From: Falsirhodobacter sp. 20TX0035
GTDB lineage: Bacteria; Pseudomonadota; Alphaproteobacteria; Rhodobacterales; Rhodobacteraceae
Assembly (NCBI RefSeq): GCF_028307215.1
Contig: NZ_JAQMHV010000015.1
Location: 1 to 62,504, forward strand
Direction: 5' to 3'
Length of the DNA stretch: 62,504 nucleotides
In this document: positions 11,110-56,554 of the stretch, in pieces
How positions within the stretch are numbered: position 1 is the stretch's first letter
How the letters are laid out: the number at the start of each line of letters is the position of its first letter
Notes under the pieces: generated by a model
Told to the model about the DNA's origin: nothing
The model's database searches: none
What the model saw: only the letters and a program-made list of their open reading frames with translations
Position numbers and translations under genes: made by a program

Positions 11110-11287
11110 GTGATGTTGCCAATGCTCGCACCCAGCCGGCACGCCTGCAGTGGCGGCCGCCGGCGCGGGTTCAGGTTACCTCAAAGCACGCGCCCCGCCC
11201 AAACGGCAACCTTTCTGGCAGAAAACCATTGGTCCCGCGCCAAGTCCGGCCTAGACACGGTGTGTCAGTTACATACGAGTGCCCTTC

Positions 11288-12286
11288 ATGAACACGGTTT
11301 CGGTCATCATTCCCGCGCACAACTCCCGCAGGACCATCGCGCAGGCCATCCGCTCGGCCCTGGCCGAGCCTGAGGTGGCGGAGGTGCTCGTCGTGGACGA
11401 TGCCTCGGCCGACGACACGGCGGCGGTGGCGCAGGGATGCGAGGATGGCAGTGGCCGTCTGCGCGTGATCCGTCTGGATCGGAACGTGGGCCCCGCCAAG
11501 GCCCGGAACGAGGCGATCGAGATCGCGACCGCCTCTTGGATCGCCATCCTCGATTCTGATGACATCCTTCTGCCCGGACGCTTTGCGCGGCTGTTCGCGG
11601 CAGGCCCGTTCGATCTGGCGGCCGACAACATCGCGCTGGTCCCCGACCACATGCGTGACACCGTGACGCCGCAGGACGTCGCCGTCTTTCCCGACGCCCC
11701 GACGCCGATGTCGCTTTCCGGCTTCGTGGCCGGAAACCTTGGCGGGCGCGCCGGTATGGGCCGGGATGAGACAGGCCTTCTGAAGCCGATCATCCGCCGT
11801 GAATTCCTCCTGCGCAGCGGTCTGCGCTATGACGAAGGTCTTCGGCTGGGCGAGGATTTCATTCTTTACGTCCGCCTGATGGCGCGTGGGGCGCGGTTCA
11901 TCACGATCCGGTCCTGCGGCTATGTCGCCTTCCAGCGCCCGGACTCCCTCAGCGTGAAGCACCGGACGGCGGATCTGAAGGCCTTCGCCGATGCCGCGGC
12001 CGGGATCCTGCGGGACGACGCCCTGCCTGCCGACGCGCAGGAGCTTCTGCGCCAGCAGGAACGGTTCACCCGCAACAAGTTTCACCACCGGCTGTTCCTT
12101 GACCAGAAGTCCGAACAAGGTCTTTTGTCGGCCGCCCGCCGGGCCATGGCCCTGCCCGCGGCACTTTGGCCCATCCTTCGGCTGACCGCGCGGGACAAGC
12201 GGGGCACCTTCCTGCGGAAGATGGGCCTTGTGAAGGTCCCGCACGAATATTCCGGCATCCGCTATCTGCTGCAGGCAGACCGCTGA
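11288..12286 (+). CDS. GT2 family glycosyltransferase
   Basis: The product is 332 aa. The GT-A signature is clear: TVSVIIPAHNSRRTIAQAI, VLVVDDASADDT, then WIAILDSDDILLPGRF with the DxDD metal site near residues 85-95. It lacks membrane spans, so it probably acts at the inner face of the membrane. The ATG at 11288 follows a weak GAGTG; a GTG at 11279 would add three residues. It is closely similar in layout to the GT2 at 25507, including SLxxGEDFxLxxRxL and YxxxRPDS/YRRHASS segments, suggesting paralogy. A terminator candidate lies at 12406-12430. Confidence 0.87.
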   Translation: MNTVSVIIPAHNSRRTIAQAIRSALAEPEVAEVLVVDDASADDTAAVAQGCEDGSGRLRVIRLDRNVGPAKARNEAIEIATASWIAILDSDDILLPGRFARLFAAGPFDLAADNIALVPDHMRDTVTPQDVAVFPDAPTPMSLSGFVAGNLGGRAGMGRDETGLLKPIIRREFLLRSGLRYDEGLRLGEDFILYVRLMARGARFITIRSCGYVAFQRPDSLSVKHRTADLKAFADAAAGILRDDALPADAQELLRQQERFTRNKFHHRLFLDQKSEQGLLSAARRAMALPAALWPILRLTARDKRGTFLRKMGLVKVPHEYSGIRYLLQADR

Positions 12287-12405
12287 GCCCGCGCCTTGTT
12301 TACCAACAATACCGTTCCTTTCCGGCCTCTCTGGACCGTTTGGCCGCAATCGGGTAAAGGCTGAGAGTGAACGGGTCGCACCTTTCCCTTTGTTTTCACG
12401 TGTCC

Positions 12406-12430
12406 TGCCCTGATGAACGGGCATTTTTTT
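12406..12430 (+). terminator. Rho-independent terminator candidate
   Basis: TGCCC and GGGCA enclose an eight-base loop and are followed by seven T. The stem is short (5 bp), but the T-tract is clear and it lies 120 bases after the GT2 stop. Confidence 0.5.
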
Positions 12431-12453
12431 AAAGATTTCGGAAGGTTGTCCGC

Positions 12454-13554
12454 GTGCTTGTGACGTATTTGGCACATGATCTTGACGATCCCGCCATCTC
12501 CCGCCGGGTCGAGATGCTTCGCCGGGGCGGGGCCGAGGTTCGCCTGGCCGGTTTCCGGCGCGGTTCCGGGGCTTTGGCGCCCGATGTTACCGTGCTTGGT
12601 CAGACCGAGAATGGCCGGATGAAGCAGCGGCTGGCGTCGATTCTTCGGGCTTTGCCGCGAATCGGCCGCATGGTGCCGCCCGCGGCCCGTCCGGAAACCA
12701 TCCTTGCACGCAATCTGGAAACGCTGGTTCTGGGGGCATGGCTGGCCCGCGGCGGCCGCGCCCGGCTGTGCTACGAACTGCTTGATATTCACGGCATGAT
12801 GCTGGGCCAGGGAAAGACCGCCCGCGCTCTGCGGCAGGTGGAGGCGACGCTGATGCGCCGCTGCGCCGCCGTCGTCACCTCCTCCCCCGCCTTTGCCCGG
12901 AACTACCTGCGGGCCTACGGGCAGCCGGACATTCCGGTCATCCTGGCCGAGAACAAGCCCTTCGACGGCCCCGCTACCAAACCGGCCACGGCCCCTGCCC
13001 GCGCGCCGGTCACCATTGGCTGGTTCGGCATCCTGCGCTGCCGCTTCTCGCTCGACGCGCTGGACCGACTGACGCGCCGCCACCCCGGCCAGTTCCAAGT
13101 GATCCTTCGAGGCCGCCCGGCGCTGGACGTGCTGGGTGATTTTCAGGCGGTGGTCGATGCGAACCCCGACCTGCACTTCCTCGGCCCTTATCGCTGGCCC
13201 GACGACCTGCCCGCCATCTATGGCGAGGTGGACTATGCGTGGCTGATCGACCGCTATCAGGCGGGGGAGAATTCGGACTGGCTGCTGCCGAACCGCCTGT
13301 ACGAAGGCTGCCTGAACGGCGCCGTTCCCATCGTGCTGGAGGGGACGGAGGTCGCGCGCAAGGCGGCCGGCTGGGGCTGCACGCTGACAATCCGTGCGCC
13401 GAAGGATGACGCGATCGCCGAGGGCCTTGCCAACGCCGCCGGGGACCTGCCCGCCCTGCAACAGGCGCTGGCCGCCGTGCCCCGGGATGCCCTGCGGATG
13501 GACGATGCGGAATGCCGTTCCCTGACGGCCGCAATCTGCGGAGGTGCCGCATGA
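12454..13554 (+). CDS. Glycosyltransferase (GT-B type), first gene of an exoA/exoM/exoP-like operon
   Basis: The product is 366 aa. It starts at GTG with GGAAGG eight bases upstream, and begins LVTYLAHDLDDPAISRRVEML, a pattern of GT4-like sugar transferases with an N-terminal Rossmann fold. A central CYELLDIHGMML segment and a C-terminal LLPNRLYEGCLNGAVPIVLEG segment correspond to the donor-binding E-containing motif. Its stop overlaps the next start (ATGA at 13551), so it is translationally coupled to the ExoA-like gene. The exact donor and acceptor are unknown. Confidence 0.78.
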   Translation: MLVTYLAHDLDDPAISRRVEMLRRGGAEVRLAGFRRGSGALAPDVTVLGQTENGRMKQRLASILRALPRIGRMVPPAARPETILARNLETLVLGAWLARGGRARLCYELLDIHGMMLGQGKTARALRQVEATLMRRCAAVVTSSPAFARNYLRAYGQPDIPVILAENKPFDGPATKPATAPARAPVTIGWFGILRCRFSLDALDRLTRRHPGQFQVILRGRPALDVLGDFQAVVDANPDLHFLGPYRWPDDLPAIYGEVDYAWLIDRYQAGENSDWLLPNRLYEGCLNGAVPIVLEGTEVARKAAGWGCTLTIRAPKDDAIAEGLANAAGDLPALQQALAAVPRDALRMDDAECRSLTAAICGGAA

Positions 13555-14540
13555 CCCCTTCCCTCCTGATCGTCATCCCCACCTTGAACGAGGCCAAACA
13601 CATCGCCCAGGTTCTGGCGTCGGTGCTGGCCTTTCCGGCGGCACGGGACGCCCGGATCGTGGTGGCCGATGGCGGCTCCACCGACGGCACCCCCGACATC
13701 GTGCGTCGGATCGCGGGGACGGAACCGCGGGTCCACCTGATGCACAATCCGCAGCGCCTTCAATCCGCCGCTGTCAACCGCGCGGTCGAGGAGTTCGGCG
13801 CGGATCATGAATGGCTGCTGCGGCTGGACGCGCACAGCGCCTATCCCGCCGATTTCGCCGACGTCGTCCTCCACGAGGCGCAGCAGCAGGGGGCGGACAG
13901 CGTTGTCGTCTCCATGGTGGCCGAAGGGGAAGGTTTCTGGCAGCAGGCGGTCGCGCTGGCGCAGAACTCCCGCCTCGGCAATGGTGGGTCGGCGCACCGG
14001 CTGGACGGGCCGGGAAAATGGGTGGATCACGGCCACCACGCCCTGATGCGGATGGCGGCCTTCCGCGCCGCCGGGGGCTACGATCCCGGCTTCAGCCACA
14101 ACGAGGATGCCGAACTGGACCATCGTCTGCGCGCGGCCGGGTTCCGCATCTGGCTGACGCAGCGCACGCGGCTGACCTATTTCCCCCGCCGCACGGTGGC
14201 GTCGCTGTGGCGGCAATATCAGAACTTCGGGCGCGGCCGGCGCCGCAACCTGACCAAGCACGGTATGCGGCCCGCCACGCGGCAGGCCGTCGTGGCGGCG
14301 CTGGCCCCGGCTCTGGCCTGCGCGGTTCTGGCCCCGCTGAACGCGATCTTCGCCTTGCCCCTGCTGCTGTGGATCGCGGGCTGTCTGGCAGGCGGCGTCG
14401 CGATCGCGCTTTCCGAACGCCATGTGGCGGGGCTGTTCGCAGGTTTCTTCGCGGGCATCATGCATTTGGCATGGTCCGTGGGATATTGGCGTGAATGGAT
14501 CTCGGCACGGCCGAAACAGGAAAGGGTCCGTCATGCCTGA
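13551..14540 (+). CDS. exoA: ExoA-like GT2 glycosyltransferase
   Basis: The product is 329 aa. The GT-A domain reads LLIVIPTLNEAKHIAQVL, then IVVADGGSTDGTPDIV, with an LRLDAHSAYP metal-site region. A hydrophobic C-terminal stretch (~245-300) gives two to three membrane spans. This architecture, including GxxDxGFSHNEDAELDHRLR, is that of succinoglycan ExoA, which adds a glucose to the lipid-linked repeat unit. The start overlaps the preceding stop (ATGA), and the next gene overlaps its 3' end by eight bases, so it is mid-operon. The symbol rests on pattern recognition; the polysaccharide made here need not be succinoglycan. Confidence 0.75.
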   Translation: MTPSLLIVIPTLNEAKHIAQVLASVLAFPAARDARIVVADGGSTDGTPDIVRRIAGTEPRVHLMHNPQRLQSAAVNRAVEEFGADHEWLLRLDAHSAYPADFADVVLHEAQQQGADSVVVSMVAEGEGFWQQAVALAQNSRLGNGGSAHRLDGPGKWVDHGHHALMRMAAFRAAGGYDPGFSHNEDAELDHRLRAAGFRIWLTQRTRLTYFPRRTVASLWRQYQNFGRGRRRNLTKHGMRPATRQAVVAALAPALACAVLAPLNAIFALPLLLWIAGCLAGGVAIALSERHVAGLFAGFFAGIMHLAWSVGYWREWISARPKQERVRHA

Positions 14541-15465
14541 GCGGCTGATCGTCGGAATTTGCACCTATCGCCGGCCCGAACTGGCGCGGACACTGGAATC
14601 GCTGCGCGACATGCTGCCCTGTGGGGCCCAGGTCAGCGTGGCCGTGGCCGACAACGACAACGAACCCTCGGCGATGAAGCTGGTGACGGGGATCGCGAAC
14701 GGCTTTCCCCTGCCGATCACCTATCTGCACGCGCCGGCGGGCAACATCTCCATCGCGCGGAACGCGCTGCTGGATCACGCGCGGGCGCAGGGGGCGCGGT
14801 TCTTCGTCTATGTCGACGATGACCAGACCCTGCGTCCCGACACCCTGCAGGCCCTGATGCAGGCGCGGGCTGACAGCGGCGCGGGGGCGGTTCTGGGCGT
14901 CGTCCACGGCGCTTATTCTCCGGACGCGCCGCGCTGGATGCTGTCCGCGCGCCCGCATGACACGCACCCGGTCCTGTCGCCCGACGGGTCCTGCCGCGCG
15001 GGCTACACCGGCAACAACCTTGTCGATCTGGCCGATCCGGCTTGGCAGGGTCTGGACTTCGATCTGTCGCGCGGCCGCAGCGGGGGCGAGGACACCGAGT
15101 GGTTTGCCCGCTATCTTGCCGCCGGTGGACGCATCGCGCCCGCCCCCCGCGCCATCGTCGATGAAACGGTGCCAAGCGACCGCACCTCGCTGCGCTGGCT
15201 TTTGCGCCGGCGGTATCGCATGGGCCAGACCCATGCCGAAACCGCAACGCTGGGCCGGGGCAATCCGGCCCGGTGGAAGCTGGGCGCGGTGGCCGCCGCG
15301 AAATGCGCGGCCTGCCTGACCATGGCCGTGGCGTCGGGAACGTCGTCACGCCGCAATCCGCAATTGATGCGCGCCGGACTTCACGCCGGTGTCGTCGCCC
15401 GCATCCTGGGCGCAGGCCCCGTCGAGCTTTATGGCCCGGCAGCCACCAAGAAAAGGCAAGCATGA
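14533..15465 (+). CDS. exoM: ExoM-like GT2 glycosyltransferase
   Basis: The product is 310 aa. It opens LIVGICTYRRPELARTLESL, continues with VSVAVADNDNEPSA and FFVYVDDDQTLRPD (the metal-binding DDD), and has SGGEDTEWFARYL in the acceptor half, a layout typical of ExoM. In Sinorhizobium ExoM adds a later glucose of the succinoglycan octasaccharide. It overlaps the ExoA-like gene by eight bases, and its stop overlaps the ATG of the ExoP-like gene. Residues ~255-280 are hydrophobic and may bind the membrane peripherally. The symbol is by analogy. Confidence 0.72.
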   Translation: MPERLIVGICTYRRPELARTLESLRDMLPCGAQVSVAVADNDNEPSAMKLVTGIANGFPLPITYLHAPAGNISIARNALLDHARAQGARFFVYVDDDQTLRPDTLQALMQARADSGAGAVLGVVHGAYSPDAPRWMLSARPHDTHPVLSPDGSCRAGYTGNNLVDLADPAWQGLDFDLSRGRSGGEDTEWFARYLAAGGRIAPAPRAIVDETVPSDRTSLRWLLRRRYRMGQTHAETATLGRGNPARWKLGAVAAAKCAACLTMAVASGTSSRRNPQLMRAGLHAGVVARILGAGPVELYGPAATKKRQA

Positions 15466-17795
15466 ACATGCGCGAACTCCGCTCCTACGTCCCGCCCGTG
15501 TCCGTCGATCACCCGGCCGAGCCGTCGCAGACCATCGAACTGCAGCGCCTTCTGGCCGGCGCCCGCCGCCAGCGCCTGCACATCCTTCTTCCGGCCCTAG
15601 GGCTGGGGATTTTCGGTCTGGCCTATGGCATGTCGAAGCCCGACACCTACAGCGCCACCGCCACGATGCTGCTGGACGACACGCTGAACACCGCCACGCG
15701 GCAGGCGGGGGGCCTGGGCGCGCCCAGCCTGACGCCCACCGCCGCGATCGAGGATGCGCGGATCGTCATGGCCTCGAACAAGCTGGCCTATGACGTGCTG
15801 AACACGACGGGGCTGACGGAGAACGCGACGTTCCTTGACGTGCCGAGCTCGCCGATCTCCACCGCCATCGGCCGCACGATTGCCTTTGTCCTGACGCCGG
15901 TCACCTGGCTGAAAAGCCTGGTGACACCAGCCGAGGAGCCGGTGAGCGCAGCCGTTGCCACCGCGTCGGACGAAACGACGACGGACCCCCAGCAACGCTT
16001 TGCGGCCTATCTGCTGCAACGGGACCTGAACGTTTCACGGCTGAGCCAGAGCAGCGCCATCGGCATCACCTACACCTCGCACGATCCGGCCATCGCGTCC
16101 ACGGTTGCGAACGCCTATGCCGACGCCTATCGCCAGGACCTTCTGGGCGCCAACGCGCAGGCCGTCACGGCCACCGAAGGCTGGATGGCGGAACGCCTGC
16201 AACAACTGCGCCAGCAGTCGCAAGAGGCTGCCCAGGCGGCCGAGAAGTTCGCCGCCGACAACCGCCTTGCGATCTCGCAGGACGGCACGCTGCTAAGCGA
16301 GCAGGCCCAGGCGGAACTGAACGCGAGCCTGACCGCCGCCATCGGCGACCGCGCCAAGGCGCAGGCCATCCTCAGCACCTATGATGATGTGCTGGCGGGG
16401 GGCGTGGAAGGTCTTCTGGACGGCAACTCGATCAGCTTCGGCTCGGACCAGTTGCCGGAACAGCTTCTCAGCCGGCTCGACAACTTCAACGGGTTGCAGT
16501 CGCGCCTGCGCGAACTGACGATCAATGCCGGACCGAACCACCCCCAGATCGCGGGGCTTAAGGAAGCGTTGCAGACGTCGGCCGGACGGCTGTTCGTGGA
16601 ATTGCAGGCCCGTCGCCAGACGGCGGCCAGCGATCTGAACGTCGCCAAGGCCCGCGTGGACGCCCTGCGCGCCACCTTGGACGAGATGACCGCCCAGAAC
16701 GCCGGTCAGGCGGCGGCCCTTGTCCGCCTGAAATCGATGCAGCAGGAAGCGCAAACCCTGTCGACGCTGTACCAGCAGACGCTGGCCGGCTCGCAGGAGA
16801 TTCGCCAGCAAAGCTCGTTCCCCGTCGCCAATGTGCGCGTTCTGTCCTATGCCGAAACGCCGCGGCAGCCCTCGGGGCCGGCCACACTGCGTTATGCCAT
16901 CGCCGCCGGGATGCTGGGCCTGTTCTTCGGCCTGTGCTGGGCCATCCGGCGCGAAACGCGCCAAAGCGTGCTGCGCACGGCCAACGACCTGACGGCCTAT
17001 TCGCCGCTGCGCTTCCTCGGACACCTGCCGCCCCTGCGGTCCTTCCGCGGGTCCCACGCGCCGCAGATCCGCGCCGCGTCGCACGAGGCGAACATGCCCA
17101 TCCAGCGCCCGCTGGCGCCTTCCGTCCAGATCCCCGTGCTGCAGCAGCCGAACTCCATCTACGCCGAAACGCTGCGCCACGTGCGGCTGGCGGCGCAAGG
17201 GCAAAGCGACGGCGCCGCCGTTGTGGCCGTGACCTCGTTCAACCCTTACCACGGCCGTGCCTCGGTCACGCTGAACCTGGCCGGTCAGATCGCCGCCACG
17301 TCGAAGAAGCGTGTGCTGGTCATCGACACAGACAGCCGGGAAGGCACCCTCACCCGCCTGCTGCGCCTGGACAGCAAGCCCGGCTTCGCAGAGGGTGCGT
17401 CCTCTGACGACCACTGGCAGTCGATGCTGCTGGATGTCGAAGACGCCAATCTGACCGTGCTTCCCGCCGGCAAGGGCATCCCGGACGATCTGCAATCCGC
17501 CCAGCTGATCCGCCGCATCCTGAACGAGGTTCGGGGCGAGTTCGCTGCCATCGTCGTGGATGTTCCGGCGCTGTATCCGACGGCGCAGGGCCTTGCGATG
17601 CTCTACGAACTGCCAAGCTTTGCCGTGGTCGGAGAATGGGGCGAGACGCCGCGCGACGTCGCGGAAGCCGCGCTCCTGAACCATCCGCTGTTGGAAAGCC
17701 TTTGCCTGGGCGTGGTCTACGACCGTGTGAACCTGCGCAAGCTTCGCAGCTTCACGACCCCGAATTCGGTGGAACGGATGCTGGTGGAGGCCTGA
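15462..17795 (+). CDS. ExoP/Wzc-like polysaccharide co-polymerase with a degenerate nucleotide-binding domain
   Basis: The product is 777 aa. Residues ~20-130 carry a Wzz-type chain-length domain with a first membrane span (ILLPALGLGIFGLAYGM). A long coiled-coil periplasmic region spans ~250-450, and a second span lies near 475-495. The C-terminal ~180 residues are a BY-kinase-like domain: Walker A' (RVLVIDTDS) and Walker B-like (FAAIVVDVP) strands are present. However, the P-loop position (~586-600) reads VTSFNPYHGRAS, lacking the GK[ST] of active kinases, and there is no terminal Tyr cluster. It is coupled to the ExoM-like gene by ATGA. It should control EPS chain length and export, possibly without autokinase activity. 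Confidence 0.87.
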   Translation: MNMRELRSYVPPVSVDHPAEPSQTIELQRLLAGARRQRLHILLPALGLGIFGLAYGMSKPDTYSATATMLLDDTLNTATRQAGGLGAPSLTPTAAIEDARIVMASNKLAYDVLNTTGLTENATFLDVPSSPISTAIGRTIAFVLTPVTWLKSLVTPAEEPVSAAVATASDETTTDPQQRFAAYLLQRDLNVSRLSQSSAIGITYTSHDPAIASTVANAYADAYRQDLLGANAQAVTATEGWMAERLQQLRQQSQEAAQAAEKFAADNRLAISQDGTLLSEQAQAELNASLTAAIGDRAKAQAILSTYDDVLAGGVEGLLDGNSISFGSDQLPEQLLSRLDNFNGLQSRLRELTINAGPNHPQIAGLKEALQTSAGRLFVELQARRQTAASDLNVAKARVDALRATLDEMTAQNAGQAAALVRLKSMQQEAQTLSTLYQQTLAGSQEIRQQSSFPVANVRVLSYAETPRQPSGPATLRYAIAAGMLGLFFGLCWAIRRETRQSVLRTANDLTAYSPLRFLGHLPPLRSFRGSHAPQIRAASHEANMPIQRPLAPSVQIPVLQQPNSIYAETLRHVRLAAQGQSDGAAVVAVTSFNPYHGRASVTLNLAGQIAATSKKRVLVIDTDSREGTLTRLLRLDSKPGFAEGASSDDHWQSMLLDVEDANLTVLPAGKGIPDDLQSAQLIRRILNEVRGEFAAIVVDVPALYPTAQGLAMLYELPSFAVVGEWGETPRDVAEAALLNHPLLESLCLGVVYDRVNLRKLRSFTTPNSVERMLVEA

Positions 17796-17912: not shown

Positions 17913-18176
17913 ATGTTCGTCACTTGCTACATCGCCGTCATGCTGGCCGCCGTTGTGGCGGCGATCCTCGCGGCCTTGTCCGCGGGATGGTCAGGATGGC
18001 AGACTATTGGCGCCGCCGCGGCGGTGCTGGTGATCGGGCAGCTGGCCCTGCTGGCCTATATCGCGATCCGGTCCACGGTCACGCTCCCTGCGTCCGCAGA
18101 CCGGAGAGATAGCCATCGGGCTGACCGGGACCATCACCCGGTTGCTCACTCTGAACGATCCGGCCATCATCCATGA
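17913..18176 (+). CDS. Small two-TM membrane protein, ExoX/SyrA-like (putative EPS regulator)
   Basis: The product is 87 aa. The first ~55 residues form two membrane spans (VTCYIAVMLAAVVAAILAAL, and AAAAVLVIGQLALLAYIAI) joined by a SGWSGWQTIG turn. The layout, with a Trp-x-Thr turn and a Gln early in TM2, resembles the rhizobial ExoX/SyrA EPS-production-repressor family. AAGGGA lies six bases before the ATG. The last ~30 residues are His/Arg-rich and overlap the convergent lasso exporter gene by 98 bases, so the real end is uncertain. Its position after the ExoP-like gene supports an EPS role. Without a search I cannot exclude a chance ORF. Confidence 0.5.
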   Translation: MFVTCYIAVMLAAVVAAILAALSAGWSGWQTIGAAAAVLVIGQLALLAYIAIRSTVTLPASADRRDSHRADRDHHPVAHSERSGHHP

Positions 18177-19860
18177 CATGAACGACGTCCGCCACGGCCA
18201 GCAAAGCCGGGCGGTGCGTGATGACCAGAACAGTAACGCTGCCCTTCAGCTTTCCGATCGTCTCGGCCAGGGCGAGCTCGTTTTCCCAGTCCAGCGCGCT
18301 CGTCGCCTCATCCAGGATGAGGATGTCCGGATCACGCATCAGCGCACGGGCCAGCGCGATCCGCTGGCGTTCCCCGCCCGAGAGCAGGCCGCCGCGCTCT
18401 CCCACCGGGCTGTCGATTCCATCGGGCAGCGCCGCCACGAAATTCGCCGAGGCGCGTGAGAGGGCCAGCTGCATGGCACCCTCATCCCCCGGGCCGGGCT
18501 CGGCCACGGCCAGCATCAGGTTGGCGCGGATGGTGCCGTCGATCAGATGCGGATCCTGCGTGACATAAGCGGTGCGATCCCGCCACGCGCGCAACTGCCC
18601 GGCCTCCAACGGCTGCCCATCCACCAGAAGCCGCCCCTGATCGGCCTGCAACAAGCCGATCACCAGATCGGCGATCGTGCTTTTCCCCGCACCGGACGGG
18701 CCGGTGATCACCGAGATGCGGTTGGCCGGAATGCGCAGCGTCAGGTCGGTCAGCACGTTTCGCGTGGCCCCCGGGAAGCGCCAGGTGACGCGGTCCAGAC
18801 AAATCTCATGCTGCGGCGCCGGGGCGGGCAGAGTGCCATCCGCCGCCGGATCGCGCCATTCGTCCAGCTGATCCTGAAGCGTGCGGATGTCACGCCAAGC
18901 GGGCAGATCGACCAGCAACTGCTGGACCGACGCTTGCAGACCCAGGAACCGCGGCCCGGCCCGCATGAACAGGATCAGAAGCACGGCGATGCGCGCAAGG
19001 TCCATACCGAGGCCGGACCGTGCCACCCAGATGAACAATGCCGCCCCGGCCACGGCCGACACCTGGAACAGCCCCGACCCGACGCTGGACTGGCGGACAT
19101 ATTGGACCGCATCGATCCGCGTCTGGTGCAGAATGTCCGAGAAGACGCCCTGATACCGCCGCTCCAGGTTCATGCTGCGGGCGACCTTCAGCCCGCCCAC
19201 GAATTCGCTGACGGCATGGCTTTGCCGTTTTCGCTTTTCCTGCAACCGGGTGCCATGACGTCCCGCTGCCTTGCGGAACGGCCGCATCAGCGACAGCGCC
19301 ACAAGCCCGAAACCAAAGGACAGCAGCGTCATGGGAACCGAGACGAGAAGGCTGAGCACCAGATACAGCCCCAGACCGATCGCCCCTTGCAGGATGGTCA
19401 GCAGGTTGAAGGTCGCCATATAAAGACGCTCGATCTCGCCGGTCAGGGCGTGCTCGATCCGCGATCGCGGCAGGCGCACCAGGCTGTCCCAGCGCGCGGC
19501 GGCGATGTCGCGGAACAGCGACAGGCGGAAACGATCGGTGAAGTCGTGGACCAGCTCTGTCAGGTAGATGCCCTTGGAGCGGTTGAAGGCTGCCTGCGCC
19601 GCCGTCAGCAGCACGATGAACACCAGAAGCACCCAAAGAGGGATGGCGTCGGGCACAAAGGCCGGAAGGTTCAGGCGCGCCAGATCCACCACATTTTCGC
19701 CATTGCCGACCAGTTGCAGGATCGGCAGGAACAAGAGGATGGAGATGCCTTCGGTCAGCGTGCCCAGCACCAGAAGCGTGGTGCCGATCGTCAGACGGCG
19801 CCGCTCCATCCGGGCGAGCGCGGTGAAGAACGACGACAGTTCCGTCCGGGAGCCGGTCAT
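18079..19860 (-). CDS. Lasso peptide ABC exporter (D protein)
   Basis: The product is 593 aa. An N-terminal six-span transmembrane domain (~20-300) is fused to one ATPase domain: Walker A GPSGAGKST (~385), signature LSGGERQR (~488) and Walker B ILILDEATSALD (~510). This is the homodimeric type I exporter layout of lasso D proteins, which export the mature peptide and often give self-immunity. Its ATG overlaps the kinase stop (ATGA). It is the last gene of the A-B1-B2-C-K-D operon. On family alone it could be any lipid or peptide exporter; the operon context gives the assignment. Confidence 0.88.
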   Translation of the reverse strand: MTGSRTELSSFFTALARMERRRLTIGTTLLVLGTLTEGISILLFLPILQLVGNGENVVDLARLNLPAFVPDAIPLWVLLVFIVLLTAAQAAFNRSKGIYLTELVHDFTDRFRLSLFRDIAAARWDSLVRLPRSRIEHALTGEIERLYMATFNLLTILQGAIGLGLYLVLSLLVSVPMTLLSFGFGLVALSLMRPFRKAAGRHGTRLQEKRKRQSHAVSEFVGGLKVARSMNLERRYQGVFSDILHQTRIDAVQYVRQSSVGSGLFQVSAVAGAALFIWVARSGLGMDLARIAVLLILFMRAGPRFLGLQASVQQLLVDLPAWRDIRTLQDQLDEWRDPAADGTLPAPAPQHEICLDRVTWRFPGATRNVLTDLTLRIPANRISVITGPSGAGKSTIADLVIGLLQADQGRLLVDGQPLEAGQLRAWRDRTAYVTQDPHLIDGTIRANLMLAVAEPGPGDEGAMQLALSRASANFVAALPDGIDSPVGERGGLLSGGERQRIALARALMRDPDILILDEATSALDWENELALAETIGKLKGSVTVLVITHRPALLAVADVVHVMDDGRIVQSEQPGDGPGQPDGYLSGLRTQGA

Positions 19861-20777
19861 GCGGGAACGCGGGACAGATCGGCCGCGATGGTGTCCGCAA
19901 TCTCATCCGCGCGGTCGAGGCCTTCGGCGATCCCAAGGACCTGTGGCGGATGTGACGCGGCCAGCGCCGCGGCCGCGCGGAAGTGCTGGGCCGCCGCCTG
20001 CCCCTTCAGCAGCGCATCGCCGAACCGCGTGGCGTATGAAAAGCGCAAGAGCGTCGGAAGGGAAAGTGCCGGATCAGGCGGCAGAACGCGCGACGCCTCC
20101 CCCGGTGCCAGCCGCTGCAACGTGTAAAGACGTGCCACCGGAACCGGCTCCTTCGCCAGCATCTCGGGCGGCAGCAGAACGCGGGTCTTGTCGATCAGGT
20201 CGTGGACGTGCCCCCGCAGGGTGGCCCCACCCGGCGCGAAACGGCGCGCCTCGTCCGAGAGCTTGAGCTGGGCGAAGCCCGGCTGGATGCGTCCGGCGGG
20301 ATCGATCGCGACCAGATCGTCGGCCAGAAGCCGGCCGCCGCGCGCGATAAGGGCGGTGGCCGTGGTCGATTTGCCAGTGCCCTTGTCGGCCAGAAACGCC
20401 ACCGCCCCACCTTGGAACAGCACCGCGCTGGCGTGCAGCACGAAATAGCCGCGGCGACGCAGAACCTCGAACAGGATCGGCCCCAGCAGCGGGAAGGCCA
20501 GAAGATCGTCCGACGCCTCCGCCGCCCGGGTGATCCGGATCGCGTCTCCGGCTTGCGACACCCGGAAGTTGCCGACCGCCGGCCAGAACAGGGCGGTCCC
20601 GTCCTCGGCAAATCCGATCTCCGGCACGGCATCGGCGGGCATGGGGGCCGGATCAAGGGTGATCGTCAGGTCCGGCTGCCCCCCGGCCTCGATGGAAGCG
20701 AGTTCGGGAAGGCGCAGGTCGGATCGGATCACCAGACCGTAAGCCATGTACGAAAACGGGGCAGACTGGCTCATCAT
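19857..20777 (-). CDS. HPr kinase-like protein of the lasso peptide operon
   Basis: The product is 306 aa. A P-loop GTGKSTT (~residue 130, within FLADKGTGKSTTATAL) is followed by RLLADDLVAID, the Asp pair of HprK/P-type kinases. HprK itself is ~310 aa with a different N-domain; here ~110 leading residues (PFSYMAYGLVIRSDLRLPEL) match the lasso/RiPP-associated subfamily. Known members phosphorylate the C-terminal Ser of the lasso precursor (paeninodin PadeK, ThcoK). The precursor here also ends in Ser. The start overlaps the cyclase stop and its own stop overlaps the exporter start, so it is firmly part of the operon. Confidence 0.85.
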   Translation of the reverse strand: MMSQSAPFSYMAYGLVIRSDLRLPELASIEAGGQPDLTITLDPAPMPADAVPEIGFAEDGTALFWPAVGNFRVSQAGDAIRITRAAEASDDLLAFPLLGPILFEVLRRRGYFVLHASAVLFQGGAVAFLADKGTGKSTTATALIARGGRLLADDLVAIDPAGRIQPGFAQLKLSDEARRFAPGGATLRGHVHDLIDKTRVLLPPEMLAKEPVPVARLYTLQRLAPGEASRVLPPDPALSLPTLLRFSYATRFGDALLKGQAAAQHFRAAAALAASHPPQVLGIAEGLDRADEIADTIAADLSRVPA

Positions 20778-22594
20778 GACGCCTTGTGTTGAAGAAGGGG
20801 GGCCGCCTCGCGCAGGTCGAACCAGGTGGCCAGCGCCAGCGCGCGGGCGATCCGGAAGGCGGCGCCGGGATCCGGGCTGTCGGACTGCAGAAGGGTGCCA
20901 TCGGCCCGCAGGGTGTCGATGTTCACCCAGCCCTGCAACGGTTGCGGATCCACCAGAAGCCGGCGCAGGTCGGGATCGCGTTGAAGGCGGGCCCAAAAGT
21001 TGGGGAGGAAGTCGATCTTGTCGCGCCGTTGACGGACCTTCTCGGGCAGGACGTCCCGCATCGCCCGCCGCAAAAGGCTGCGCGGCTGGCCTTGGGCAAT
21101 AAGGGCATGGTCGGGTTGGGCGACGCAAAGCTCAACCACGCGGTGATCGTAGAAGGGGTAATGGGGCGTGACCCCGGCGCTGCGGGCGGCCACATCCAGA
21201 ACCTCCAATGCGCCGCTGAGCAGCGGGGCCGTCATCGTGTCCAGATGCGCCCGCACGCCTTCGGGCAGATCCCCGCCCACCGGGGAATGAAGGGCCTGCA
21301 CACGTGCCACAAGGTCCGTGTCGGCCACCAAGGCCGGATCCAGCAGCGCCCGCCATTCCAGACGGTCATGGTGCGGCGCCCGGGACGCACGGCGCGCCAA
21401 GGCCGCCAACAGCCGCGGGCCGCGCGCCGCGACCAGTTGCATCCAGACACTTGTGGGCGAGACGCCGGTGAAACGCGCATGCTGCCATGCCAGTCCCAGC
21501 GCCGGCCCCCAGGCACCGCGACCCGCGATATGCATCAGGCTCCGCAAGCCGCCGTCGATCACTTCATCGCCCCCATGGCCGTCTAGGACGTCGCGATATC
21601 CCATTCGTCTTGACGCGAGGTAAAGATGACGGTTTCCCGGAAGTCCGGGCGCAAAAAGGGGCTGGTCGTTGTCGGTCAACAGGGCCCGCAGGTCCGGGGC
21701 GACATCAGCGGCCGGGATGTTTTCGGGAATGAGCGCGCCTCTGGACTTCGCCAGCACCGCGTCGATATACACGCCCTCGTCCAGCGCGGGATTGTCATAG
21801 CGCAGCGAAAGAGCGGCCCGTTCTTCCCCCGGACCCACCGACAGCAGGGACAGGGTGCTGGAATCCAGTCCACCGCTGAGGAAGGTGGCGATGCTGCGGC
21901 CCGCGCAGGCTTCCCGCGTCGCATGTCGAAGGGCCTCATGCAGCGCCTCGGCCCCGTCGGCCTCGCTCGGGACGATCCGTTCGTGCAGGCTGTACCAGCC
22001 CCGCGTGGTCAGCGTGCCGTTTGCGGAAAGGCGGAGCAGGTGGCCCGGCGGAAGACGGCGGATCTGCGCGTGCGCGGTGCGTTCGTGGCTCGTGTCCTGC
22101 CCGCATAGGAAGTCGGCCATCCACGCCCGGTCGATGTCGGTCGCACCCGACAGGCCAAGCCGCACCAGGCGGATCGTGGAGGCGACGACGATGCGGTCCG
22201 CCTCCACCGCATAGGCCAGCGGTCGGACGCCCATGCGATCCCGCACGGCCCAGGTTTCGCCCGTCCGGGCGTCATGGATGGTGAAGGCAAAGCAGCCGTT
22301 CAGCCGATGCAGCGCACCTTCCTGATGCCGCGCCCACAAGGATAGGACCATCTGCGCCGGATCGGCATCCGTTCCATGCCCTGAATCAGCCCGCAACTGC
22401 GGAATGTCCGTCAGCCCCAGATCGCCGCACAGCGACAGCGGCCCCTGTTGTGCCAGGCATCCCCATTGCAGAAGACGATCACCCGGCGAACGGCTTTCCG
22501 CCGAGTCGGGGCACCCCGCCCGCATCCGCATCGCGGCAGAGGCAAGGCCGAGGATCGGCCGCCCGATCCCGCCCAGAACGGCAAAATGGCTCAT
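20774..22594 (-). CDS. Lasso peptide macrolactam synthetase (C protein, asparagine synthetase-like)
   Basis: The product is 606 aa. An N-terminal glutaminase-like domain (MSHFAVLGGIGRP, later WAVRDRMGVRPLAY) lacks the catalytic Cys at position 2, as in lasso cyclases that do not use glutamine. The ATP-pyrophosphatase signature FLSGGLDSSTLS is near residue 240, and DGHGGDEVIDGG follows. These enzymes adenylate the side-chain carboxylate (here predicted Asp9 of the core) and close the ring on the N-terminal amine. The ATG at 22594 overlaps the B2 stop (ATGA). A longer in-frame reading to 22999 is an antisense-like extension over B2 and is rejected. Confidence 0.92.
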   Translation of the reverse strand: MSHFAVLGGIGRPILGLASAAMRMRAGCPDSAESRSPGDRLLQWGCLAQQGPLSLCGDLGLTDIPQLRADSGHGTDADPAQMVLSLWARHQEGALHRLNGCFAFTIHDARTGETWAVRDRMGVRPLAYAVEADRIVVASTIRLVRLGLSGATDIDRAWMADFLCGQDTSHERTAHAQIRRLPPGHLLRLSANGTLTTRGWYSLHERIVPSEADGAEALHEALRHATREACAGRSIATFLSGGLDSSTLSLLSVGPGEERAALSLRYDNPALDEGVYIDAVLAKSRGALIPENIPAADVAPDLRALLTDNDQPLFAPGLPGNRHLYLASRRMGYRDVLDGHGGDEVIDGGLRSLMHIAGRGAWGPALGLAWQHARFTGVSPTSVWMQLVAARGPRLLAALARRASRAPHHDRLEWRALLDPALVADTDLVARVQALHSPVGGDLPEGVRAHLDTMTAPLLSGALEVLDVAARSAGVTPHYPFYDHRVVELCVAQPDHALIAQGQPRSLLRRAMRDVLPEKVRQRRDKIDFLPNFWARLQRDPDLRRLLVDPQPLQGWVNIDTLRADGTLLQSDSPDPGAAFRIARALALATWFDLREAAPLLQHKAS

Positions 22595-23034
22595 CGCGCC
22601 ACCGACGGGGCGCGCACCGGGTAGTCGTGCAGCATTCGGTGACGTTGATAAAGATCGACGGTTCCGCCAAGCACCACCGTATCGCCCGCCATCAGCCAGG
22701 CATGGGGCGCGATCCGCCCTTGGGCGTCCGCCAGCGGCGGCACCGAGATCCGGACGATCGAATCGAAACCGCGGCGCGCCAGAATCCACTGCCCCGCGGT
22801 CGCCTGCGTCAGGCAGCTGGCCTTGGGCACAGAGCGTGACACCGCGGCAACCGCCCAGGCGATCTCGGCAAGGCGGTGGTTGGGGGCCATCGAATGAACG
22901 GTAAAGGTGCCGATCCGACGCCGCAGCCAGTCGCTCCGGCGCGACGACAGGGCGCAGCGGACGACCGCCACCGTGAACAGGCACTCCAGCAAAAGGCACA
23001 CCTGCCTTGCCGAAATCCGACGCAGGCGGGCCAT
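22591..23034 (-). CDS. Lasso peptide leader peptidase (B2 protein)
   Basis: The product is 147 aa, the usual size of split-type B2 proteins. The transglutaminase-like catalytic residues are visible: Cys74 in PKASCLTQATAGQW and His111 in APHAWL, with an Asp/Glu expected just after. It should cut the precursor after Gln21 to free Gly1 of the core. AAGGGC precedes the ATG, four bases after the B1 stop; its stop overlaps the cyclase start. The N-terminus (~10-30) is hydrophobic. The tandem B1-B2 order is standard for split lasso systems. Confidence 0.9.
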   Translation of the reverse strand: MARLRRISARQVCLLLECLFTVAVVRCALSSRRSDWLRRRIGTFTVHSMAPNHRLAEIAWAVAAVSRSVPKASCLTQATAGQWILARRGFDSIVRISVPPLADAQGRIAPHAWLMAGDTVVLGGTVDLYQRHRMLHDYPVRAPSVAR

Positions 23035-23038
23035 TGCG

Positions 23039-23299
23039 TCAGGCCCTTACAACGAGGCCGTTTTGCGCCATCTCGTCCAGAAGGCGCGAGATGTCGTTCT
23101 CACATTCGGCCTGCGACACCTCGAAGTTCGAGGCGATGGATTGGGCCAATTCGGGAACCGACGTCGGCTCCTTCAGAAGCCCCCAGACTTCTGCCCCGAC
23201 CTCGTCCAAGCCGAAGTACAGGTTGGTTTTGAGGTTCAGAATCGCGAGACCACCGTCCACGTCGCAAGCGACGCAGTCCGGCGAGACAACATAGGACAT
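23039..23299 (-). CDS. Lasso peptide RiPP recognition element (B1 protein, PqqD-like)
   Basis: The product is 86 aa. It has the PqqD-type winged-helix outline: a strand with DGGLAILNLKTNLYFGLDEVGAEVWGLL, then a helix and a basic/acidic C-terminal helix (ENDISRLLDEMAQNGLV). B1 proteins bind the leader peptide, recognising the Tyr-x2-Pro-x-Leu motif present in the precursor at residues 5-10, and deliver it to B2. GGAAGG lies six bases before the ATG. A hairpin with a T-tract (23316-23340) separates it from the precursor gene, which should make the precursor transcript more abundant than the enzymes. Confidence 0.92.
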   Translation of the reverse strand: MSYVVSPDCVACDVDGGLAILNLKTNLYFGLDEVGAEVWGLLKEPTSVPELAQSIASNFEVSQAECENDISRLLDEMAQNGLVVRA

Positions 23300-23315
23300 G
23301 ATGTGCCTTCCGATG

Positions 23316-23340
23316 AAAAAGGGCGGCGTGACCGCCGCCC
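23316..23340 (-). terminator. Attenuator-like hairpin between lasso precursor and B1
   Basis: An 8-bp perfect GC stem (GGGCGGCG/CGCCGCCC) with a four-base loop at 23321-23340 is followed on the minus strand by TTTTT (23320-23316). It lies 10 bases after the precursor stop. Partial termination here would give high precursor and lower enzyme expression, as in other RiPP operons. Confidence 0.8.
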
Positions 23341-23350
23341 ATTCGCGCTT

Positions 23351-23488
23351 TTACGAGAAGGTCAGTTCACCTTTGGGAGTCCCGACGGGGAACGCCTGGT
23401 CCAGCATGGAGCCGTTGGACGAACCTTGGGTCAGGGCTTCGAGGGTGCCGTGAACGCGGAGGGCGGGCGCGGAGTAAGCTTTTTTCAT
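23351..23488 (-). CDS. Lasso peptide precursor (A protein)
   Basis: The product is 45 aa. The leader (1-21) begins MKKAYSAPALRVHG and shows Y5, P8, L10, G14 and the penultimate T20 of the lasso consensus YxxPxLxxxGxxxxxTx. The core (22-45) starts GSSNGSMLD, so Gly1 and Asp9 can form a nine-residue macrolactam ring; the tail is QAFPVGTPKGELTFS. No other acidic residue lies at positions 7-9. The last residue, Ser24, is the expected substrate of the operon's HPr-kinase-like protein. The ribosome site is weak (GGTT). The gene is divergent from exoY. The hand-summed monoisotopic mass of the cyclised core is about 2408.1 Da, or about 2488.1 with one phosphate. The threaded fold and product are inferred, not shown. 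Confidence 0.9.
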   Translation of the reverse strand: MKKAYSAPALRVHGTLEALTQGSSNGSMLDQAFPVGTPKGELTFS

Positions 23489-23589: not shown

Positions 23590-23733
23590 AAAGTTAGGTT
23601 AATAAAATGAAAATTCTTTGTTAACTATCTATTAACGTTGAAAACCGCTCCGGTTTCTGACAACCCTCCATCTGACTCCCGTTCATGGGTCAGTATTCAT
23701 GTTGTTTTAACGATTGTTCAGGAGCTTCTCCCC

Positions 23734-24465
23734 ATGCCCCCTGATGGCACCAGTGTCGGTATTGACGGCAAGTTGGCCGTTTCGCTTTCCTCCTCCTCCC
23801 CGAATCTGGGGACGGCTCCCGGAGCCGCCCCGCAACCCCGTTCCACCAAGCCCGTCGGCGGCCTCGCAAAGCGGTCCCTGGACGTGGCGCTTGTGCTGCT
23901 CAGCCTTCCGCTCTTCGGCATCCTGATTCTTGGCCTGATCGCGCTGATCAAGGCAACGGATCGTGGCCCCCTCCTCTACGGTCACCGCCGCGTCGGCTTC
24001 AACGGGACCGAGTTCAAGTGCTGGAAGTTCCGCACCATGGTCGTGAACGGGGACGAGATCCTTGCCCGTCACCTTGAGTCAAACCCGGCGGACCGGCTCC
24101 AGTGGGAGACGGAGCGCAAGCTGTCGAACGATCCACGGGTCACGCGCGTGGGCGCGATCCTCCGCAAGCTGAGCCTGGATGAACTTCCGCAGCTTCTGAA
24201 CGTGCTCTGCGGTCAGATGAGCATCGTCGGCCCCCGTCCCGTCGTCCGGGCCGAGCTCGACAACTATGCCGCCACCGCGCCGCTTTACCTGATCACGCGC
24301 CCGGGCCTGACCGGTCTTTGGCAGGTCAGCGGTCGCAGCGACACCACCTATGCCGAACGTGTCCGGCTGGACCGCCAATACGTCCAGGGCTGGAGCATGC
24401 TGCTGGACATCAAGATCATCCTGCGCACCATCCCGGCGCTGCTCAGCTCGCGCGGCGCGCGCTGA
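23734..24465 (+). CDS. exoY: ExoY-like undecaprenyl-phosphate sugar phosphotransferase
   Basis: The product is 243 aa. One N-terminal membrane span ([20 protein letters not shown], ~45-70) precedes a bacterial sugar transferase domain with [25 protein letters not shown] and MSIVGPRPV, ending [13 protein letters not shown]. This small PglC/ExoY type lacks the extra spans of WbaP. It primes EPS synthesis by moving a sugar-1-phosphate, usually galactose, to undecaprenyl phosphate. I chose the ATG at 23734 because AGGAG lies nine bases upstream; a TTG at 23638 would add 32 non-homologous residues. It is divergent from the lasso operon and convergent with the GH16 gene. Confidence 0.85.
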
Positions 24466-24616: not shown

Positions 24617-25402
24617 TCAGCACGTGATGGACCCCGCGAACAGGCACGTCTCGCCCAGCGGCGTGTAGGCGATCCAGTCGATCAGATAGTCCAGCTGGCC
24701 GGTCCGCCGTCCCTGTTTGCCCATCCAGTCCGTCAGGGTGGTCGTGCTCCAGAACGACATCATCAGCTTTTGCGGCAGATCCGGCAGGGTCGCGCCGGCC
24801 GGGGTGCGGTGCACCTCCTCGCCATCCACGAACCAGACGATGGCGTCCGGCCCCCATTGGATCGCGACGCGGTGGAAAGCTTCGTCCAGCGGCGGGTCGG
24901 CGGGCGCGTCGTCGCCGTTCATCGCCTTGCCATCGACAAAGGTGTTGAAGGTGATGCGGTCCGTCCGCCGGGTCAGCACTTCGATGTCGATTTCATCATG
25001 CCGCGTGCCCTGCGTGCCCCCCGTATAGGTGAAGATGGAGGCGTTCAGGCCGGACGCGGCCGGCGTGCGGATCTCCGCCTCGATCGTGCCGTAGTGGATG
25101 AGGCCGCGCAACTGAACCTCGCCGCATTCCGAACGCTCGGCTTCCGTGCCCGGAACATGAGCCAGCTTCAGCATCCCGTCCGCCACCGAAACGGCCGACT
25201 TCGCCCAGTAGCAGTCCTGATGCCTGCCGTTCGTCCAGCCGTCGGACACATACCACCGGCGCGTGTTCAGCATGGGCGCCGTGAAGTCATCACGGAAGCC
25301 TTGGGTGATCATGGGCTCGGCCGTCTGCGCAAGCGATGCATTGGCCGGGAGGGATGCGGCGGCGACCGTCATGGCCACCCGGAAAGGGGAAACTTTTAAC
25401 AT
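24617..25402 (-). CDS. exoK: ExoK-like GH16 endo-beta-glycanase, secreted
   Basis: The product is 261 aa. A Sec signal peptide (MTVAAASLPANASLAQ, cleavage near residue 25) precedes a GH16 jelly-roll domain. The active-site motif HDEIDIE (~135-141) carries both catalytic Glu residues, and SFWSTTTLTDWMG near the C-terminus is typical of the ExoK/laminarinase branch. ExoK trims succinoglycan-type EPS outside the cell. The ATG at 25402 is preceded by a weak GGATG; a start at 25465 would add 21 residues before the signal. It is convergent with exoY and divergent from the GT2 at 25507. Confidence 0.85.
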   Translation of the reverse strand: MLKVSPFRVAMTVAAASLPANASLAQTAEPMITQGFRDDFTAPMLNTRRWYVSDGWTNGRHQDCYWAKSAVSVADGMLKLAHVPGTEAERSECGEVQLRGLIHYGTIEAEIRTPAASGLNASIFTYTGGTQGTRHDEIDIEVLTRRTDRITFNTFVDGKAMNGDDAPADPPLDEAFHRVAIQWGPDAIVWFVDGEEVHRTPAGATLPDLPQKLMMSFWSTTTLTDWMGKQGRRTGQLDYLIDWIAYTPLGETCLFAGSITC

Positions 25403-25506
25403 CAAACATCCAAACAAATGAACACCCGACCGGATGTTGCCACGATTTCCACCGGTGGTTATCAAGCCGGCATGCGTTGGGTCAACGGAAAGGCGTCGTG
25501 GAGTCT

Positions 25507-26607
25507 ATGGAAGCACCCCTTGTGTCGGAAACGCCGCCGCTTGTCAGCGTGATCATGGCGAACTTCCGGGGGGCGCGGTGGCTGGAAGCCTCGATGCGCT
25601 CTGTCCTCTCGCAAAGCCATGCGAAGCTTGAGCTGATCGTGGCGGACGATGCCTCGGACGATGACAGCGTCGCGATCGCGAAGGCGGTGTCCGCAGGGGA
25701 TGAGCGTGTGCGGGTCCTGCCCTCGTCCGAAAACGGCGGTCCGGCCGCCACGCGCAACCGCGCGCTGGACGCGGCGCGGGGGGAGTGGATCGCCATCGTC
25801 GACAGCGACGACCTGATCCACCCCGACCGTCTGCAACGCCTTCTGGCCGTGGCACGGGACACGGGGGCCGATCTTGTGGCCGATGATCTGGTGCATTTCG
25901 GCGCGAACGAACGGCGGACCCTGCTGCAGCCCTTGCACCTGACCCGGCCAATGCCCCTCGATGCCGCGCAGTTCATGCGCAGCAACGGGGCCGAGCCGGG
26001 CCTGCCAAGCTACGGCTATCTCAAACCTCTGATCTCGCGCCGAGCCTTGGGCGGCCGGCGCTACGATACGTCCCTGCACATCGGGGAGGATTTCGACCTC
26101 GTGATGCGGATGCTGATCGACGGGGCGTCCTTTGTGGTCGTTCCCGATCCACTTTACGCCTATCGCCGGCACGCCTCGTCGATCTCGCACCGCATGACGG
26201 CAGAGCGAATGGCGTCGATGCTGGCGGCGCATCGCAGCCTGCCCGCGATGCCCGACGCCGCCTCGGCCCGCGCGGCGGCGGGGGTGGAGCGGCATCTGGA
26301 ACGCGCCCTGCGCTTTGAACGCCTGGTGCTGGACATCAAGGCGCGCCGGCTGCGTCAGGTCCTGCCGCGCTTGGCCGAACCCGCGATGCTGGCGCGGCTG
26401 GCGGACAGCCTGCGCGACCGGCGGCGCCGCAAGACCGCCGTGATCCGCCCGGCCGCTCAAGCGGTCGACTGCCCTCCCCTGCCCCAAGCCGGACACGCCT
26501 GGGCCCACCCCCCGGCCGGGGCCGCCGCGTTGATTGGCGCCGGCGCTGCCGTTGCGGCAGACTTGCCGGACTGGGGCCAGTGGCTGGATGCCGCAGTGCG
26601 GAGCTAG
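25507..26607 (+). CDS. GT2 family glycosyltransferase
   Basis: The product is 366 aa. The GT-A motifs are VSVIMANFRGARWLEASM, LIVADDASDDDS and WIAIVDSDDLIHPDR (metal site ~95-105), followed by HIGEDFDLVMRMLIDG. It resembles the GT2 at 11288 over the whole N-terminal domain. The last ~60 residues are Ala/Pro-rich and probably not catalytic. The ATG at 25507 is chosen; a GTG at 25498 with GGAAAGG upstream is also possible. Its TAG stop shares CTAG with the stop of the convergent nucleotidyltransferase gene. Confidence 0.83.
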   Translation: MEAPLVSETPPLVSVIMANFRGARWLEASMRSVLSQSHAKLELIVADDASDDDSVAIAKAVSAGDERVRVLPSSENGGPAATRNRALDAARGEWIAIVDSDDLIHPDRLQRLLAVARDTGADLVADDLVHFGANERRTLLQPLHLTRPMPLDAAQFMRSNGAEPGLPSYGYLKPLISRRALGGRRYDTSLHIGEDFDLVMRMLIDGASFVVVPDPLYAYRRHASSISHRMTAERMASMLAAHRSLPAMPDAASARAAAGVERHLERALRFERLVLDIKARRLRQVLPRLAEPAMLARLADSLRDRRRRKTAVIRPAAQAVDCPPLPQAGHAWAHPPAGAAALIGAGAAVAADLPDWGQWLDAAVRS

Positions 26608-27641: not shown

Positions 27642-27996
27642 GCTCGGCACTCCCGGCAAATGTTGTCATCCGCCGCAGAGCGTAGCGGGCAGGCGTGGGC
27701 ACCGCAAGCGGCACGCTTCGAACATGGCGAATTTGGCGAGCAGCCGATGCGCGGCGCTGGGCAGCTTTGCCAGCCCCTCCTGCCCCCAAAGCGGCTCGCA
27801 TCACGGGCATCGTCATCCCCCGCCGTCTCCCCAGTATCCAACAGCTTGGAGATCCGGCAAAGCGTGCAAGACCCACGCACCCGCTCCGCTTGTGTCGAAC
27901 GGACCGTGAGCATGTTTTAATTGTCTTGTGAGAACCACAATAGTCATACAATATGATTCAGCGGGGTGAGGAGGATCCCGCTTCAGGGAGGATTGA
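27642..27996. other. Intergenic region upstream of the sugar importer operon
   Basis: This holds divergent promoters for the nucleotidyltransferase gene and ytfQ. Near ytfQ are TACAAT (27947-27952, a candidate -10) and the imperfect palindrome TTGTG-N5-CACAA (27926-27940), a plausible operator for the GntR/FCD regulator encoded at the operon's end. No gene is seen. Confidence 0.5.
27926..27940. promoter_or_regulatory. Candidate operator of the sugar importer operon
   Basis: TTGTG and CACAA arms flank five bases, just upstream of a TACAAT -10 candidate. The size and TTGT/ACAA ends suit a GntR/FCD dimer. The link to the regulator at 32469 is inferred from position only. Confidence 0.35.
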
Positions 27997-56539: not shown

Positions 56540-56554
56540 TGGTGTCTCCAAATG

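Follow-up and report, generated by a model that had tools for sequence, protein, structure and literature searches.

The 62,504-nt contig NZ_JAQMHV010000015.1 of Falsirhodobacter sp. 20TX0035 (the window: one entire contig of a genome assembled in 54, in whose coordinates all positions below are given) carries on its minus strand, at 18079-23488, an operon that we read as directing the synthesis of a 24-residue phosphorylated lasso-type peptide, made as an accessory of the exopolysaccharide (EPS) locus that surrounds it. We would put the probability of this reading at about 0.7. Homology and conservation establish the gene set, the pattern of the core peptide, the catalytic residues and the linkage to EPS genes, and it is from this linkage that we infer a role in the EPS. 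The presence of the same peptide family within EPS clusters of related bacteria suggests a peptide that works for the coat and is not an antibiotic in its own right.

The lasso operon and its predicted product

A preliminary description of the window, made from the DNA letters alone, had proposed a lasso operon in the order A-B1-B2-C-kinase-D, linked by ATGA overlaps from B2 to D. All six frames proved open and intact at the positions claimed (Table 1), the three overlaps were located at 22594-22591 (B2/C), 20777-20774 (C/K) and 19860-19857 (K/D) on the minus strand, and B1 and B2 are spaced by 4 bases. Family matches and conserved catalytic residues likewise support the assignment of these genes to the lasso toolkit. 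B1 matches Pfam PF05402 (PqqD; E 2.6e-17, over the cut-off) and resembles the lasso B1 proteins of solved structure TbiB1 (3.2e-10) and TfuB1 (7e-06). B2 exceeds the cut-off of the lasso_biosyn_B2 model NF033537 (52.7 against 33 bits) and matches Transglut_core3 (E 2.3e-15); no relative of solved structure was found for it by sequence, and the Cys74 and His111 picked out earlier are near-invariant, being kept in 78/78 and 77/78 aligned relatives, with one gap in the latter case. C matches PF00733 (Asn_synthase; E 4.9e-31, over the cut-off) and has SGGLD in all 79 aligned rows, the full SGGLDSS motif of the preliminary description being confirmed in 77. When the lasso family models were run on the locus, as had been proposed, the leader of A and B2 came out over their cut-offs; B1 and C were nearest to lasso models, yet fell below the cut-offs, with 60.4 bits against 80 (NF033536) and 231 against 525 (NF033535), respectively. 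Given the PqqD, Transglut_core3 and Asn_synthase matches, and B2 and the leader over lasso cut-offs, the gene set is not due to chance, and its identification as a lasso operon is supported. D has matches to PF00005 (ABC_tran, 8.3e-30) and PF00664 (28.7 bits, cut-off 28); its best NCBIfam model is HepA, followed by MsbA, both below cut-off. There are proteobacterial lasso clusters with an isopeptidase E gene; here, no peptidase domain was found by Pfam (E 0.001) in 30 chosen window frames, among them the immediate neighbours of the operon.

The precursor A consists of a 21-residue leader, with the residues Y5-P8-L10-G14-T20, and a 24-residue core, GSSNGSMLDQAFPVGTPKGELTFS, laid out as a ring from G1 to D9 followed by the tail QAFPVGTPKGELTFS. 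It satisfies the lasso precursor pattern (YxxP in the leader, Thr at position -2, Gly or Ala at core position 1, Asp or Glu at core positions 7-9) and ends in Ser. Among NCBIfam models, the lasso leader domain NF033521 is matched with 24.7 bits (cut-off 19) and NF033528 with 32.1 bits, slightly below the cut-off of 33; Pfam gave no match for A. The core is consistent with an undescribed one, as judged without a list of characterised cores for comparison.

The gene between C and D was rightly described as encoding an HPr-kinase-like protein, K: fold match and conserved residues confirm it, though the HprK models stay below their cut-offs (32.8 bits against 200 for the best NCBIfam model, HprK_rel_A, and 25.1 against 33.3 for PF07475). 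The AlphaFold model of K (predicted local distance difference test score, pLDDT, 93.1) best matches phosphoenolpyruvate carboxykinases (4.5e-9), and HPrK chains are also matched (3.2e-5). Its H115, K136, D153 and D154 are present in 80/80 aligned homologues and appear to fit the published His-Lys-Asp-Asp motif that, in the account given in one review, lasso kinases need (PMC9266682); the passages on such kinases in two reviews have them phosphorylate the precursor while it is still linear, on its C-terminal Ser (PMC9266682, PMC8498205). This fit, together with a terminal Ser in 76 of the 78 related precursors described below, indicates that the product is probably phosphorylated at its C terminus. 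The mass near 2408.1 Da calculated earlier therefore holds for the unmodified lasso peptide (2408.13 Da when recomputed with a Gly1-Asp9 ring); since the kinase predicts a C-terminal phosphoserine, 2488.10 Da (one phosphate) or more would be expected instead.

A family of related precursors

Scanning a genome collection with K alone confirmed no relative; scanning it with a kinase alignment gave 166 loci, the best 80 of which were kept. These come from Paracoccus, Thioclava, Salipiger, Palleronia, Cognatishimia, Cereibacter, Salinarimonas, Aurantiacibacter and others, 55 being titled Mesorhizobium. A recognisable precursor is present in 78 of the 80 (one of them, in locus L097, in an overlong frame that needed manual reading), the two others being L085 and L114, which starts within C at a contig end. 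The core in the window is thus no lone oddity, and a chance or mis-called precursor could be ruled out. All 78 precursors have Thr at -2, 76 have Gly and two have Ala at core position 1, and Asp is at core position 9 in 77; the C-terminal residue is Ser in 76 and Thr in two, and 73 end in LTFS. Seventy-five of the cores have 24 residues, and 44 are distinct. Over all pairs of 55 Mesorhizobium-type genes (uncorrected; L152 was excluded owing to N in its sequence), the ratio of nonsynonymous to synonymous differences (pN/pS) comes to 0.023 in the leader and 0.26 in the core, and the core is under purifying selection among these sequences. Some variants were also seen, with a longer tail containing Cys and ending in GLS in L149 (near 7210) and with the C-terminal Thr in L090 (near 7229) and L093 (near 7123).

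Within the taxonomic family of the host (394 genomes), a lasso B2 was found in 27 genomes at E 0.001. K gave some match in 55 at 1e-5, mostly short or weak, and seven genomes besides that of the window have it at 38-52% identity. An even spread of the precursors across the class was rejected: of 385 evenly drawn genomes, the precursor profile matched two, the window's own and one with a weak, partial match (E 8.5e-5), and the family is rare in the class.

Linkage to exopolysaccharide loci

The EPS setting noticed in the preliminary description was borne out by the Wzc/ExoP-like, WbaP-like, ExoK-like GH16 and several glycosyltransferase genes around the operon (Table 1). When the 80 related loci were searched with the window proteins (E 1e-6), the full set from B1 to D was found in 76; 77 gave a match to Wzc or WbaP, and 17 to Wzc alone. 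Of 11 EPS markers, 76 loci have at least two and 75 at least three; three of the five loci with fewer than three markers lie on contigs of 4.5-12.3 kb and the two others belong to Salinarimonas. WbaP-like, GH16 or glycosyltransferase genes flank the operon in Rhodobacterales and Mesorhizobium alike. The controls were the 19 lasso B2 sites that remained in the family once nine of the present kind had been taken from the 28, each with 6.8-19.9 kb of context. At least three EPS markers occur in two of these (L166 and L176, three each), and the other 17 have fewer than two. Judged by at least three markers in 75/80 related loci versus 2/19 other lasso loci, the EPS setting is not incidental.

Several points weigh against our reading. 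B1, C and K are all below the curated cut-offs of their nearest lasso or HprK models, and the conservation of K136 is partly by construction, as the loci were fetched via the kinase, in part by a pattern (one of two) bearing GKST. The 80 loci are dominated by a single genus (55 Mesorhizobium) and are not mutually independent. The two Salinarimonas loci, on long contigs with two and zero EPS markers, are true exceptions. Because the markers are window proteins, different EPS genes near the 19 controls would escape, and eight of these controls span less than 19 kb. Linkage, moreover, is no proof of joint function. Finally, the EPS glycosyltransferase GT2c is found (at least 50% identity) in 20 genomes of the family, seven with the lasso operon and 13 without it. 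The operon is thus not required for EPS synthesis and is an accessory module.

The 13 lasso-less genomes include two of limited completeness (G068, 76%; G166, 71%) and one, G116, with a lasso B2 of another class elsewhere in the genome. In six of the 13, the distance from the last neighbouring EPS match to wzc is 480-1780 bases between match edges. L224, one of the 13 lasso-less loci, has short fragments matching D and NTP5, the nucleotidyltransferase-fold protein described below, beside EPS genes (at about 11485-12285); they look like what is left of the module after decay. In L085 (near 10001), a kinase gene lies between WbaP and Wzc where none of A, B1, B2, C and D could be recognised, and in L180 (Paracoccus sp. 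MC1862) the whole lasso-EPS locus is carried on a 41.8-kb plasmid, beside a replication initiator gene. With seven of the 20 GT2c genomes carrying it and L224 holding remnants, the module seems to come and go as an accessory to the EPS locus.

A nucleotidyltransferase-like gene that probably belongs to the module

Apart from the operon, on the same strand, lies a gene for a nucleotidyltransferase-fold protein, NTP5, which exceeds the cut-off of PF14907 (68.7 against 31.2 bits, as scored on the longer frame 26607-27659). Its K, G, Q, DxD and DxH residues are kept in 74/74 aligned rows, and its predicted model (pLDDT 92.1) matches nucleotidyltransferases, namely MenT1 (2.5e-4) and, more weakly, LnuA, ANT(2'') and FKRP, the likeness to FKRP being weak (E about 0.01). 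NTP5 is present in 74 of the 80 related loci, the other six being negative by profile too, and in 16 of 18 units at the genus level, 12 named and six not, into which the 80 loci were collapsed by hand from their titles. We had considered that NTP5 might be exclusive to the LTFS family, and rejected this, as the 0/19 obtained for the other lasso loci with the window protein as query, which, like the Fisher values computed from it, applies to close homologues only, became 8/19 in a profile search. That search detected a distant NTP5-like frame in eight and a kinase-like frame in 12 of the 19, mostly outside EPS loci; both are therefore marks of a broader class of lasso clusters. In the 13 lasso-less EPS loci no NTP5 was found by profile, bar two short fragments in L224. 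Presence in lasso loci and absence from lasso-less EPS loci tie NTP5 to lasso systems and not to EPS synthesis. The gene thus probably belongs to the lasso module, as a tailoring enzyme. The six genes first described stand, and their module had left out this probable member. The earlier account, right about the gene set, was in the same way incomplete on the phosphate at the C terminus and on the existence of related cores.

Proposed pathway and alternative explanations

By analogy with characterised relatives, we infer the following course for the phosphorylation, cleavage, ring closure, NTP5 action and export. The leader, with its YxxP motif, would be bound by B1, and K would phosphorylate the C-terminal Ser of the still linear precursor. 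B2 would then cleave after Thr-Gln, and C would join Gly1 to Asp9 round the threaded tail. The NTP5 protein may add a sugar or nucleotidyl group onto the phosphate, and D would export the product, which would act in or on the exopolysaccharide, in the matrix, at the surface or in regulation. A bolder version, prompted by the nucleotidyltransferase fold of NTP5 and its weak likeness to FKRP, which transfers sugar-alcohol phosphate to glycans, would make the lasso peptide a covalent part of the polysaccharide, NTP5 linking its C-terminal phosphoserine, through a phosphodiester bond, to a sugar at which EPS chains start, are capped or are anchored, so that the product would be an exopolysaccharide with a lasso cap; we regard this version as a long shot.

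The peptide could instead be an antibacterial bacteriocin that travels with EPS genes merely via mobile or variable surface islands. Lasso exporters often confer immunity too, the locus is variable, C and its Wzc neighbour both being absent from 6/6 other genomes of the genus searched (E 1e-20), and it can be carried whole on a plasmid, as in Paracoccus. A diversifying toxin would be expected to change faster than is indicated by a core pN/pS of 0.26 and an LTFS end in 73/78 precursors, however, and chance co-travelling fits poorly with EPS-type flanks in both Rhodobacterales and Mesorhizobium when 17 of the 19 other lasso loci have fewer than two markers, so that we find this explanation unlikely. 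About as unlikely is an exported, phosphorylated peptide that is coregulated with the EPS without being bound to it, and that serves as a signal, binds metals or blocks a phage receptor at the surface. Its phosphate tail could chelate metals, and D accompanies the operon beside EPS genes wherever the B1-to-D set is complete (76/80 loci), but neither a receptor nor a regulator was seen among the scanned frames beside the operon. As to a decayed or silent operon, decay apparently occurs elsewhere, as in L224 and L085, but here the six frames are intact and the checked residues of B2, C and K are present, and we consider it very improbable. The reading we prefer remains that of a phospho-lasso-type peptide accessory to the EPS locus.

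Relation to known systems

Phospho-lasso peptides are already known, Proteobacteria included, as summarised in the relevant section of a review (PMC8498205). The operon shares with the paeninodin-type clusters of Firmicutes (PadeK, ThcoK), which were compared by description and not by sequence, the genes A, B1, B2 and C, an HPr-kinase-like K and an exporter, as well as the C-terminal Ser and residues fitting the His-Lys-Asp-Asp motif. It differs in having a Gram-negative host, an NTP5 gene apart from the operon and a YxxP leader instead of WxxP, in which W is described as nearly invariant in the part of a 2026 paper dealing with it (PMC13381572). The system in the window probably works like paeninodin, yet without a WxxP leader we do not file it as such. 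In pseudomycoidin (PsmK and PsmN), too, a kinase and a nucleotidyltransferase-like gene stand alongside the lasso set, in a different gene order; PsmN is described in passages of two reviews as attaching hexoses to the phosphate on the phosphoserine (PMC9266682, PMC8498205), and the likeness of NTP5 to PsmN is by description only. SyanK of Sphingobium yanoikuyae, also compared by description only, is another proteobacterial lasso kinase that acts on the C-terminal Ser, and the passages on it do not mention an EPS setting (PMC9266682, PMC8498205).

The closest parallel in setting comes from Bacilli. The 2026 paper places paeninodin-like lasso clusters within capsule loci and, for these and the LPP clusters, describes ribosomally synthesized and post-translationally modified peptide genes, an HprK-like kinase, a nucleoside triphosphate transferase and an MsbA-like exporter in polysaccharide loci; it deals with Bacillota and does not mention Proteobacteria or Pseudomonadota (PMC13381572). 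It also states that the biological role of paeninodin is unknown and treats biofilm as speculative. This capsule linkage makes a shared role at the surface polysaccharide more likely, and the linkage of lasso peptide genes to polysaccharide loci is now seen in a second phylum. The excerpt of a paper on halotolerance in Erythrobacteraceae lists, without comment, a lasso B2, a nucleotidyltransferase and a PqqD, together with an Asn-synthase cluster, under close numbers (PMC10040529). Searches of the openly licensed PubMed Central literature turned up, in the passages retrieved, neither the LTFS family nor an alphaproteobacterial lasso-EPS linkage; within that reach, both the alphaproteobacterial family with the LTFS tail and its association with EPS loci are new. 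With the family in EPS loci of cultivable Paracoccus, Mesorhizobium and Thioclava, the role left open for paeninodin becomes testable.

Other features of the window

The operon and the neighbouring EPS genes are listed in Table 1. A terminator-like hairpin lies between A and B1. It is a conserved feature in part only, a perfect stem (at least 6 pairs) being found in 12 of the 23 relatives checked, with the T run often absent.

Table 1. Features of the lasso operon and of the EPS genes around it
Feature	Position	Strand	Basis
A, lasso precursor, 45 aa	23354..23488 (stop 23351-23353)	-	NF033521; homologues in 78/80 related loci
Terminator-like hairpin between A and B1, 8 G-C pairs and T tail	23321..23340	-	Perfect stem in 12/23 relatives checked
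B1, PqqD-like putative leader-binding protein, 86 aa	23039..23299	-	PF05402; TbiB1/TfuB1 likeness
B2, putative cysteine leader peptidase, 147 aa, Cys74/His111	22591..23034	-	NF033537
C, Asn-synthetase-like putative macrolactam synthetase, 606 aa	20774..22594	-	PF00733
K, HPr-kinase-like putative kinase, 306 aa, H115/K136/D153/D154	19857..20777	-	Conserved residues; predicted fold
D, putative ATP-binding cassette (ABC) exporter, fused permease and ATPase, 593 aa	18079..19860	-	PF00005; PF00664
NTP5, nucleotidyltransferase-fold protein, 345 aa	26607..27641 (start chosen by us)	-	PF14907
WbaP-like sugar-phosphate transferase	23638..24465	+	PF02397, 1.3e-58; WbaP model 291 bits, below cut-off of 403
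GH16 ExoK-like endoglycanase	24617..25465	-	PF00722, 1.3e-28; ExoK model 239 bits, below cut-off of 350
GT2a, GT2 glycosyltransferase	25474..26607 (start chosen by us)	+	PF00535, 1.1e-31
Wzc/ExoP-like EPS co-polymerase	15462..17795 (start chosen)	+	PF13807 above cut-off, PF02706 below; TIGR01005 247.6 bits, below 411.7
Four EPS glycosyltransferase genes (GT2b, GT4, GT2c, GT2d)	11279..15465	+	Pfam scan

Near the EPS region, a large frame on the minus strand (117-3113) contains many RTX calcium-binding repeats. At 55709-58644, muramidase and podophage tail-adaptor-like genes are found, which could represent a prophage remnant.

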